A stretch of DNA of 64,000 bases, taken from positions 1 through 64,000 of the forward strand of contig CAIJLV010000010.1 of the NCBI GenBank assembly GCA_903821635.1, written 5' to 3'. How positions within the stretch are numbered: the first letter of the stretch is position 1; each line of letters opens with the position of its first letter. Shown here in pieces: positions 29,444 through 33,070 of the stretch. Origin of the DNA: an uncultured Verrucomicrobiota bacterium (GTDB lineage Bacteria > Verrucomicrobiota > Verrucomicrobiia > Limisphaerales > UBA9464). Both the position numbers and the translations under genes were made by a program. Under the pieces are notes generated by a model. The model was not told the DNA's origin, ran no database searches, and was given only the letters and a program-made list of their open reading frames with translations.

Positions 29444-29542
29444 CTTGGGCTCTCGTCGATCGGCTTGGCCGATGAATTCCCCCATCTCGCCCCTTGGCGA
29501 GGCGAGACCGAGCGACCCATGCTGGCGAAAGCAATTCCCGCC

Positions 29543-32500
29543 ATGAAGCACCCGTTCGTCTTCTTCGCTGCGTCCCTGCTGGTTCCGCTCATGCTCTTGG
29601 GCCAAACCACCGGACCAGCCCTTTCCCCGGAGGCCGCCGCGGCCCCCGTCTTCTCGAAGGTGACCGGGCTGGAAGCACCGACCGCCGCCAAACCCGCCGA
29701 ACAGTTGGGCCCACTTTCGCCCCCGGAGGCGGCGAAGTCGTTTCATGTCGCCGACGACCTCGTGTTCGAGCAGGTGCTCGCCGAACCCATCGTCGCGCAG
29801 CCGGTGTTTCTTACCTTCGACGAACGCGGCCGGATGTGGGTCGTGCAATACCGGCAGTATCCAAACCCAGCCGGAGTGAAGATGGTGAGCCGCGATAATT
29901 TTTGGCGCGCCGTCTATGACCAGGTGCCGCCCCCGCCGCCGCATCACTTCAAGGGCGCGGACACGATCACGATCCACGAGGACACGGACGGCGACGGGAC
30001 GTTCGATACGCACAAGACCTTCCTCGACGGCTTGAACATCGCCACCAGCGTCGCTTTCGGCCGCGGCGGCGTGTTCGTGCTGAATCCGCCCTACCTGCTC
30101 TTCTATCCGGACAAGAATCGCGACGACGTGCCCGACGGCGATCCGCAGGTGCTGCTCTCCGGCTTCGGCTTGGAAGACACCCACAGCATCGCCAACTCGC
30201 TGCGCTGGGGCCCCGACGGCTGGCTCTACGGCTGCCAAGGCTCGACGGTGACGGGAAACATCCTCGTGTATGGCGCGGACGGAAAGGTGTTGGAGGAAGT
30301 TGAAGTAGGTTCCGAAAGTGAGAAGGACGCCCGCCCTCTCCCCCGCGGAGAGGGAGCCGCGAAACCGGCCGCGGACAACTTCACAGCCGCCGCGCAACAG
30401 GACAGCGCGGCGGCCACTCCAGCGAATGCCTCCGCTGAATCGAAGCCCAGCAACGCCAGTTCAACGACCGGAGTCGCTACCTTCCCCCGCTCCCCGGGGG
30501 AGAGGGCTGGGGTGAGGGCGGGCAACCCACCATCTTCATCCAGCATCCAGACCCCAGCATCCAGCAACGGGTCCAGTCAGAGCCTCCTCACATCGGCTCC
30601 TACGAAGAAACTCCGCCGCCCGATGCGCCCCATCTATTCCCAGGGGCAGAACATCTGGCGCTACCACCCGGAGAAGCGGATCTACGAAGTCTTCAGCGAA
30701 GGCGGCGGCAATGCCTTCGGCCTGGAGATCGACTCCGCCGGACGCATCTTCAGCGGGCACAACGGCGGTAACACGCGCGGCTTCCACTACGTCCAGGGCG
30801 CTTATCTCCAGAAGGGCTTCGACAAGCACGGCCCGCTCTCGAATCCGTATGCCTTCGGTTATTTCCCACAGATGCCGCACCCCGACGTGGACCGCTTCAC
30901 GCACAACTTCGTCCTCTACGACAGCGGCGCGCTCGGCGAACGCTACCAGGGCAAGCTCTTCGGCGTGGAACCGCTCCAGGGCCGCATCGTCCTGAGCGAA
31001 CTCACGCCCGACGGCTCGACCTTCCGCACGCGCGACCTCGGATATCCGGTGACGAGCGACGACAAATGGTTCCGCCCCGTGGACATCAAGCTCGGCCCCG
31101 ACGGCGCGCTCTACGTGTGCGACTGGTATGACCGCCAGGTGAACCACTACCGCAACCACGAAGGCCAGATGGACGCGAGCAACGGACGGATTTACCGGCT
31201 GCGGGCGAAGGACTGGTCTCCAAAACGCGCTACCGACTTGTCGCGAGCGACTTCCCGAGGAATGTCCCATTTGCTCCAAAATCCGAACCGTCATATCCGG
31301 CAAACGGCACAAAGGTTGATCGCGGAAAACCGAACGCTCGCCCGCGACTCTGATGACCTAATTGGTGCAGCATCTTCTCAGGCAGCCTTGGAATGGCTGT
31401 GGGTCCAACACTCGGTCGGCCGCCTGCCGCGACAGGGGCAAGGCATTCCAACACCGGCTTATGCTATTCAGATTGTTGGACAGTTCCTGAACCATGCGAA
31501 CCCCTTCGTGCGTGCCTGGACCGTGCGCCTATTGGGTGATGATCGGTTGGTATATCCAAAACTTGTTCCCAAACTATCGGACTTGGCCGCCACCGAACCC
31601 AACCTCGAAGTCCGCGCCCAACTTGCCTGCACTGCCAAGCGCCTGCCCGCCGCCGACGCCCTGCCCATCGTCCGCAACCTGCTGGCGCATGACGGTGACG
31701 CCGCCGACCCGCGCCAACCGCTCCTGCTCTGGTGGGCCATCGAGGACAAATGCGCCACCGACCGCGACGCCGTGCTCGCCCTCTTCGCCGACCGCGAACT
31801 GTGGCGCGCGCCGCTCGTCCAGCAGCACCTCCTGTCGCGTCTGATGCGCCGCTTCGCCGCCACGGGCAAACGCGACGACCTGCTCACCTGCGCCACACTC
31901 TTTGCCCGGTCGCCGGGACCCGACCAAACCGCCCAGCTCACGCGCGGCTTCGAGGAAGCCTATCAGGGCCGCCCGATGATTGGGTTGCCCGAGGAACTGC
32001 TTTCCGCCATGGAACGCGCCGGCGGCGAGTCCGTGCTCATCGGCGCCCGGCGCAGAAAACCCGCCGCCGTCGAACAGGCTCTCGCCCTGATCGCCGATCC
32101 CAAAGCCGACGCTTCGAAGCGCCTCCAGCTCGTCCAAGTGCTCGGCGAAACCAAGCAGGCCAGCGCCGTGCCCGCGCTGCTCGCCGTCACCCGCGACGCG
32201 AAGCAGGCCGATCTGCGCAAAGCCGCGCTCGGCGCGCTTCAGGCTTACGATTCGCCCGCCATCGCCGGCGAAGTCCTGACGCAATTGGCGAGCTATCCGA
32301 ACGACGTCCGCACCGCCGCCTTCGGCCTGCTCGCCAGCCGGGCGAACTGGGCTTTGGCGCTGTTACAGGCCGTCGATGCGGGGCGTTTGGAACAGGCAGC
32401 CGTGCCGAATGATGTGGTGCGCCGAATCAAGGCGCTCGCCGAAGTGGGACCGGCTTCCAGCCTGTCTCCGGGGCTTCCAGCCCCAAACAAGGCCGCTCAC

Positions 32501-33070
32501 TGGCAAGAGGCCCGTAGCGGCAGGCTGGAAGCCCGCCCCACTATGGCGGCACTGCTCACCAAGCACTGGCCCAATCTGCGGGAAGCCACCTCCGCCGAGT
32601 TGGAACAGGAAATCACCCGCCTCGCCGAGGTCATCAACCTCACGACCGGCTCGCCCTACGTCGGCAAAAAGCTGTTTCTGGAAAACTGCGGTGCCTGCCA
32701 CAAACTCTTCAACACGGGGGGCAACGTCGGTCCGGACCTGACCGTTTACCAACGCAACGACCTGCCCAATCTGCTGCTCAACGTCGTCAATCCCAACGCC
32801 GAGATCCGCGAAGGCTACGAAAGCGTCACCGTCGAGACCCAGGACGGCCGCTCCTTGACCGGCTTTCGCGCCGATCAGGATTCCCAAGTGCTCGTCCTGC
32901 GCACGCCCGACGGCCAAACCCTTCCCCTGCCCCGCGCCGAAATCGCGTCTGTGGAAGCCGCGGGCGGCTCGCTGATGCCCGAGGGACTGCTCGCCAACCT
33001 GAGCGACCAACAAGTGCGGGATCTCTTCGCCTACCTGCGGAGCACGCAGCCGCTGAATGACGGCAACTGA
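29543..33070 (+). CDS. PVC-type secreted dehydrogenase-like beta-propeller with c-type haem tail, interrupted by repeat insertions
   Basis: 1175 residues with a signal peptide (FVFFAASLLVPLMLLG). The N-terminal propeller (about 60-560; MWVVQYRQYPNPAG, WRYHPEKRIYEVFSEGGGNAFG, FSGHNGGNTRGFHYVQGAYL) matches the 'membrane-bound dehydrogenase' family of Pirellula and Verrucomicrobium (TIGR02604). A helical HEAT-repeat-like region follows (about 700-1000). The C-terminal domain has one c-type haem site C1049-GA-C1052-H1053 and GPDLTVY, as in TIGR02603. About 100 residues at 253-352 and about 33 residues at 968-1000 appear to be inserted repeat DNA read in frame. Such proteins are thought to oxidise sugars or sugar alcohols outside the cytoplasm, but the substrate is unproven. 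Confidence 0.85.
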   Translation: MKHPFVFFAASLLVPLMLLGQTTGPALSPEAAAAPVFSKVTGLEAPTAAKPAEQLGPLSPPEAAKSFHVADDLVFEQVLAEPIVAQPVFLTFDERGRMWVVQYRQYPNPAGVKMVSRDNFWRAVYDQVPPPPPHHFKGADTITIHEDTDGDGTFDTHKTFLDGLNIATSVAFGRGGVFVLNPPYLLFYPDKNRDDVPDGDPQVLLSGFGLEDTHSIANSLRWGPDGWLYGCQGSTVTGNILVYGADGKVLEEVEVGSESEKDARPLPRGEGAAKPAADNFTAAAQQDSAAATPANASAESKPSNASSTTGVATFPRSPGERAGVRAGNPPSSSSIQTPASSNGSSQSLLTSAPTKKLRRPMRPIYSQGQNIWRYHPEKRIYEVFSEGGGNAFGLEIDSAGRIFSGHNGGNTRGFHYVQGAYLQKGFDKHGPLSNPYAFGYFPQMPHPDVDRFTHNFVLYDSGALGERYQGKLFGVEPLQGRIVLSELTPDGSTFRTRDLGYPVTSDDKWFRPVDIKLGPDGALYVCDWYDRQVNHYRNHEGQMDASNGRIYRLRAKDWSPKRATDLSRATSRGMSHLLQNPNRHIRQTAQRLIAENRTLARDSDDLIGAASSQAALEWLWVQHSVGRLPRQGQGIPTPAYAIQIVGQFLNHANPFVRAWTVRLLGDDRLVYPKLVPKLSDLAATEPNLEVRAQLACTAKRLPAADALPIVRNLLAHDGDAADPRQPLLLWWAIEDKCATDRDAVLALFADRELWRAPLVQQHLLSRLMRRFAATGKRDDLLTCATLFARSPGPDQTAQLTRGFEEAYQGRPMIGLPEELLSAMERAGGESVLIGARRRKPAAVEQALALIADPKADASKRLQLVQVLGETKQASAVPALLAVTRDAKQADLRKAALGALQAYDSPAIAGEVLTQLASYPNDVRTAAFGLLASRANWALALLQAVDAGRLEQAAVPNDVVRRIKALAEVGPASSLSPGLPAPNKAAHWQEARSGRLEARPTMAALLTKHWPNLREATSAELEQEITRLAEVINLTTGSPYVGKKLFLENCGACHKLFNTGGNVGPDLTVYQRNDLPNLLLNVVNPNAEIREGYESVTVETQDGRSLTGFRADQDSQVLVLRTPDGQTLPLPRAEIASVEAAGGSLMPEGLLANLSDQQVRDLFAYLRSTQPLNDGN
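30334..30522. repeat. Dispersed 'ctctcccc' repeats inside the dehydrogenase gene
   Basis: Left mark: ccctctc-ccccgcg-gagaggg hairpin at 30334-30354. Right mark: ccccgggggagagggctggg type sequence through ggtgaggg at 30487-30520, inverted to the usual orientation. The in-frame peptide (RPLPRGEG ... SPGERAGVRA) is the read-through typical of this repeat class. Confidence 0.7.
32444..32541. repeat. 98-bp palindromic element inside the dehydrogenase gene
   Basis: 21-base arms, gtgggaccggcttccagcctg (32444-32464) and its inverted partner at 32521-32541, match at 19 of 21 positions. An inner ggcttccagcc copy is present. The element is read in frame (from GPASSLSPGLPAPNKAAH to SGRLEARPTMA). Confidence 0.8.

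Follow-up and report, generated by a model that had tools for sequence, protein, structure and literature searches.

REP-type repeats within the reading frame of a verrucomicrobial haem-binding protein gene

A haem-binding protein gene with two repeat inserts

We analyzed a window of 64,000 nucleotides from a freshwater Verrucomicrobia genome, in which positions 29465-33070 of the forward strand form a single uninterrupted open reading frame of 1201 codons. Its start codon is uncertain (TTG at 29465, ATG at 29519 or ATG at 29543). The product is a PVC-type haem-binding CxxCH protein with a DUF7133/TIGR02604 propeller, HEAT repeats, and a TIGR02603 haem domain. Scores of 237 bits for TIGR02604 (cut-off 122) and 119 bits for TIGR02603 (cut-off 68) place it in this family. 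The CxxCH haem-binding motif, read from the sequence as CGACH, lies at 32687-32701 (forward strand), and C1049, C1052, and H1053 are invariant in our alignment of host-protein homologues (A1). Named relatives of the gene come from Verrucomicrobia metagenome genomes, the closest record being LaPlata_bin-1618, with a contig matching that of the sister species G001. In Pedosphaera sp. Baikal-deep-G231, the match to the host gene spans 4336 bases (L129, 3501-7836) and the open frame covers only about 2990; this homologue may be interrupted or duplicated. The original prediction held that two types of repeat lie in frame in this one gene, and this is confirmed. That the gene is unbroken is supported, at the level of sequence, by the open frame and the intact flanking domains.

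A REP is a short hairpin headed by GTAG or GTGG; RAYT (TnpA-REP) HUH transposases usually move such elements as head-to-head pairs. At the first site (30287-30613, forward strand; ends approximate), a net insertion of about 109 codons (327 bp), slightly larger than the 100 or so residues first estimated, replaces a short linker between propeller strands. The anchor-to-anchor distance is 134 residues in the window and 99 in G001. Among 53 measurable homologues besides the sister species (nine further ones could not be measured), it is 25 residues in 46 and 19-27 in the other seven. The insert is bounded by two type C REPs: a degenerate left copy at 30305-30326 (+; GTAGGTTCCGAAAGTGAGAAGG; consensus GTAG-GAGCC-GACGTGAGGA-GGCTC), with a local score of 22, a level that 12 out of 5000 50-mers drawn at random from the window also reach, and an inverted right copy at 30580-30603 (-; GAGCCTCCTCACATCGGCTCCTAC; 23/24 to consensus). 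Enclosed by these outer hairpins is an inverted pair of type A repeats, overall at 30329-30523. The left arm (30329-30354, +) is without about 12 bases (CACCCCGGCCCT) found in full-length copies on contigs C88 and C103, and the right arm (30486-30523, +), which includes GGGGAGAGGGCTGGGGTGAGGGCGGGC, agrees with the family consensus at 26/27 positions. Within this pair, 28-nt arms at 30327-30354 and 30486-30513 are 86% complementary and give rise to the ctctcccc-type hairpins noted originally. A short direct repeat, two copies of CCAGCATCCAG (30540-30564, +), separates type A from the right type C REP. The 320-nt block folds better than shuffled sequence (z -4.0).

The block of about 300 bases proposed at 30301-30600 fits the outer REP pair almost exactly, but it holds at least two families, apparently nested, which rules out a single 300-bp repeat. 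The type A pair is probably nested within the type C pair; the nesting is probable rather than certain because the left type C REP is degenerate. Elsewhere (C88, C103, and C205), type A repeats pair up in inverted orientation over about 200 bp. The GTAG/GTRG head that marks REPs is absent from both type A arms; we term type A only a dispersed inverted-pair repeat, and it may belong to another repeat class.

The second site, which comes after the HEAT region and ahead of the haem domain, is filled by a head-to-head dimer of type B REPs (32443-32543; 101 bp with ends; net about 32 codons). The left REP, GTGG-GACCGGC-TTCCA-GCCTGTC (32444-32466, +), has 1 mismatch to GTGGGACAGGCTTCCAGCCTGTC and the inverted right REP (32519-32541, -) has 3; the unit of the pair reads GTGG-GACMGGC-TTCCA-GCCTGTC. 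This is the feature described earlier as a 98-bp palindrome with 21-base arms (32444-32541): arms at 32444-32464 and 32521-32541, each of 21 nt, are complementary at 19/21 positions, and a 106-nt stretch folds at -33.7 kcal/mol versus -19.5 for shuffles (z -5.2). In relatives, the last HEAT helices run straight on towards the haem region, and a separate homologue comparison contains about 20 relatives without inserts. The expectation that relatives would be continuous at both points is confirmed by these comparisons and, at the first site, by 19-27 residues versus 134.

An AlphaFold2 model of the host protein from 36 sequences has a mean pLDDT of 72.6. Residues 255-355, corresponding to the first insert, have a pLDDT of about 27 (all <50) and lie between strands 237-243 and 364-367; the second insert falls in a weakly predicted stretch (970-982) flanked by confident helices. 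Low confidence at the inserts is partly expected, since hardly any other sequence covers them. Pro, Ser, and Ala abound in the first insert, which is disordered in the model; peptide stretches at or in the inserts include ADGKVLEEVEV-GSESEK, SPGERAGVR, and VGPASSLSPGLPAPNK. Elsewhere in the window, two 96-nt direct copies (652-747 and 987-1082) are 96% identical and have a common stop codon at their end; their translation presumably looks like the C-terminal part of a type I restriction specificity subunit.

Dispersed copies and in-frame repeats in other genes

BLAST searches of this genome returned 17 matches for the first block (itself included) and 6 for the second. Core patterns allowing up to 3 mismatches gave 13 matches for type A and 6 each for types B and C, the latter two with 5-7 sites each. 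Reversed control patterns had zero matches, both in this genome and across 36 genomes. Of these 36 genomes, all from the family and order, 17 contain type C (up to 87 sites) and 15 contain type B (up to 106 sites), counts that derive from pattern searches and sampled stretches, not complete genomes. One related genome, G024, has about 106 type B REP sites and 52 type B dimers. The repeats are thus dispersed in the genome, as predicted, and they recur elsewhere in the order; the opposite pattern, in which homologues would share the inserted residues and the genome would have no other copies, was not observed. With about 6-13 matches per family, this genome has few copies, a point against the explanation we favor below.

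Types B and C have the anatomy of GTAG-type REPs. A GTAG or GTGG head directly precedes the palindrome (GTGG-GACAGGC-TTCCA-GCCTGTC in type B, GTAG-GAGCC-GACGTGAGGA-GGCTC in type C), copies are dispersed, and head-to-head dimers are frequent. The heads, palindromes, and head-to-head pairs agree with the published REP description (PMC3733652). Ends of types B and D also carry TA (TAGTGG...CCACTA): of the 52 type B dimers of G024, most have TA at one end or both, 31 having it at the left end and 33 at the right.

Insertions of this kind extend to other genes. The gene for IspG, a MEP pathway enzyme (C32, L184:2075-3991, reverse strand), contains a type B insert of net +24 residues that is absent in seven relatives, and type B also lies in frame in a BaiN-like flavoprotein and in a 1495-codon gene on contig C53. 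PSD1 carries an in-frame type C dimer; G001 has a similar insert in this gene, and in G007 the place is filled differently. By an automatic test, elements are intragenic and in frame in 9/22 cases in this genome, 9/21 in G001, and 19/50 type B dimers in G024. About 40% of the sampled REP elements in these three genomes are thus in frame inside genes, a sample fraction because the elements were gathered by search and not from complete genomes. In a test for frame selection, dimer length in G024 is 1 mod 3 in 16/19 in-frame dimers versus 20/31 of the rest, a difference that is not significant overall (Fisher p 0.20). Lnt (C215) was considered as a further host and rejected: the REP at 397-420 of L071 lies outside the open frame (489-1919), and the linkers of relatives are similar in length.

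G001, the only congener compared, is 78% identical to the window in the host gene and is occupied at the same two places by different elements: the first site holds type A-like repeats, the second a type C REP dimer. Both of its inserts match other places in the G001 genome. The chance of two random protein sites coinciding with both is about 0.0005. Beside the first site, KVLEE and KK-RRPMRP are common to the window and G001 and missing in other genera, which suggests that the insertion there predates the split of the two species and was later overwritten. Alternatively, the coincidence may reflect a limited set of tolerant loops.

A RAYT gene inside a conserved reading frame

The RAYT-like transposase anticipated in the original prediction is present, the genome having five Y1_Tnp (Y1 transposase) matches. 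No type A, B, or C element lies beside any of these five within the stretches read; only type D, which is related to type B, flanks a RAYT here. This RAYT is encoded within the C53 gene, a 1495-codon open frame with a UDPGP-like region (L179:2091-6575) that holds such elements at three points: one is occupied by a type B REP dimer, another by a complete RAYT together with its flanking inverted REPs, and the third by one more block of REPs. Relatives are continuous at these points, apart from G001 at the third. In each of the 17 relatives found to have the gene, whose open frames have 1081-1399 codons (mostly 1108-1183), no more than about 45 bases separate the two sides of the RAYT point. In G001, the RAYT point is empty and the two sides are 95% and 90% identical. 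The third insert repeats the pattern seen between the two species in the haem-protein gene, consisting of type D REPs here and of a type C dimer in G001.

The C53 RAYT has about 200 residues. It matches NF047646 at 58.7 bits, under the curated cut-off of 80, and a weak alignment to E. coli TnpA-REP (4er8; E 0.0018) covers both its HxH and its Tyr region. It is bracketed by inverted type D REPs, TAGTGGCACAGGCG...CGCCTGTGCCACTA (GTGGCACAGGCG REPs). Type D (GTGG-SACAGGC...GCCTGTS) is similar, though not identical, to type B and has TA ends in common with it; this likeness makes the C53 RAYT or a relative a likely mobiliser of type B. A literature search limited to open-licence papers turned up no earlier description of a conserved gene that contains a RAYT in frame, an absence that is weak evidence of novelty because of that limit. 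On a second contig (C98, L181:1843-4653), the reading frame of an HsdR-like type I restriction subunit continues into a second Y1/RAYT transposase and reaches the end of the contig. PADLOC found nothing.

Origin of the inserts and relation to known elements

We propose, with a probability of about 0.87, that both extra peptides are REP elements within the reading frame and are predicted to be translated. This proposal rests on the absence of the inserts from homologues, dispersed copies, REP anatomy, the open frame, the RAYT genes, and other REP-type repeats at the sister's sites. REP pairs would insert widely in the lineage, their movement presumably catalyzed by RAYTs, and most intragenic ones would be lost; copies that persist would be those that left the frame open and fell in a tolerant surface loop. 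At the first site, a type C pair would have arrived first and a type A pair then inserted inside it, followed by erosion that may include the deletion of roughly 12 bp in the left type A arm. The second site would have been filled by the type B dimer. The resulting peptides would be translated and, most simply, neutral passengers. More tentatively, the RAYT/REP elements of this lineage may largely be in-frame translated passengers of genes, including a complete transposase that, with its REPs, would form an extra domain of a conserved protein, and a site opened by one REP may be reused repeatedly by other REP families.

The composition of the first insert invites a different account, in which both sites are linkers of low complexity that evolve fast and resemble GC-rich repeats only through composition and slippage. 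The Pro, Ser, and Ala content of the insert is high, its model is disordered, its sequence is unlike that of the sister species, and it contains the small CCAGCATCCAG duplication. We consider this account very improbable given near-exact matches of 21-27 nt to dispersed families, the zero matches of reversed controls, the arrangement in inverted pairs, and the short, constant length of the homologous linkers (25 residues at 46 loci). It is refuted for the repeat cores; the spacer around 30355-30480 may have such an origin. Whether RAYTs or a DDE transposon moved the repeats is a separate matter. TA at the ends of types B and D recalls many bacterial MITEs (PMC2229807), and type A is without a GTAG head; however, types B, C, and D have a GTRG head and a short stem-loop, and an inverted GTGG-REP pair surrounds a Y1 HUH transposase on C53, which makes ordinary MITEs an unlikely source. 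A benefit to the protein, for example from exposed linkers, could be invoked in place of neutrality, as both sites are filled in both sister species against a chance of about 0.0005. The sister sequences differ, though, the model is disordered, and common ancestry or a small number of tolerant loops explains the coincidence equally well; retention for benefit appears quite improbable.

Our preferred reading, in-frame REP insertion, concerns a kind of event that is already known, because intragenic REPs were reported in 2013, most abundantly in the verrucomicrobium Opitutus terrae (PMC3733652). The original claim of a clear case stands as to REP DNA in coding sequence and is less exceptional than proposed, given these earlier REPs in open frames. 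The frequency, probable nesting, site reuse, and in-frame transposase are notable extras. The published set includes the GTGG variant (in O. terrae), double insertions, clusters encoding 43-82 residues, and, in recB of two Xanthomonas species, nearly coincident positions that hold different REPs (PMC3733652). Our elements share with it the GTAG/GTGG head, short stem, dimers in open frames, and genes with two inserts. At about 109 residues, the first insert here exceeds those of the published set in length, and it combines families; our genome also has a haem protein and IspG among the hosts, and one gene contains a whole RAYT with its REPs in frame. Inverted REP pairs forming hairpins in association with RAYTs recall the REPINs of Pseudomonas fluorescens SBW25, where, however, 14 of about 1067 REP 16-mers overlap genes (PMC3116915), in contrast to about 40% of sampled elements in frame here.

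The classic case of palindromes in genes is the Rickettsia palindromic elements (Ogata 2000), as outlined in PMC10969869 and PMC2229807. By those outlines, mobile palindromes of about 100-150 bp lie in frame within many conserved genes in both systems and are apparently tolerated by the proteins; as in Rickettsia, a repeat here lies in frame in a conserved protein and is absent from homologues, judged by open frame and homology. Compared by these descriptions, ours differs in its phylum, REP-type ends, and RAYT genes. The filled, differently filled, and empty sites of sister genomes offer a comparative case of mobile DNA adding peptides to conserved proteins, and the in-frame C53 RAYT offers a chance to ask if a transposase can persist within a host protein. 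For annotation, they are a warning that some Pro/Ser-rich 'linkers', such as SPGERAGVRAG and VGQASSLSSGLPA, can be REP DNA.
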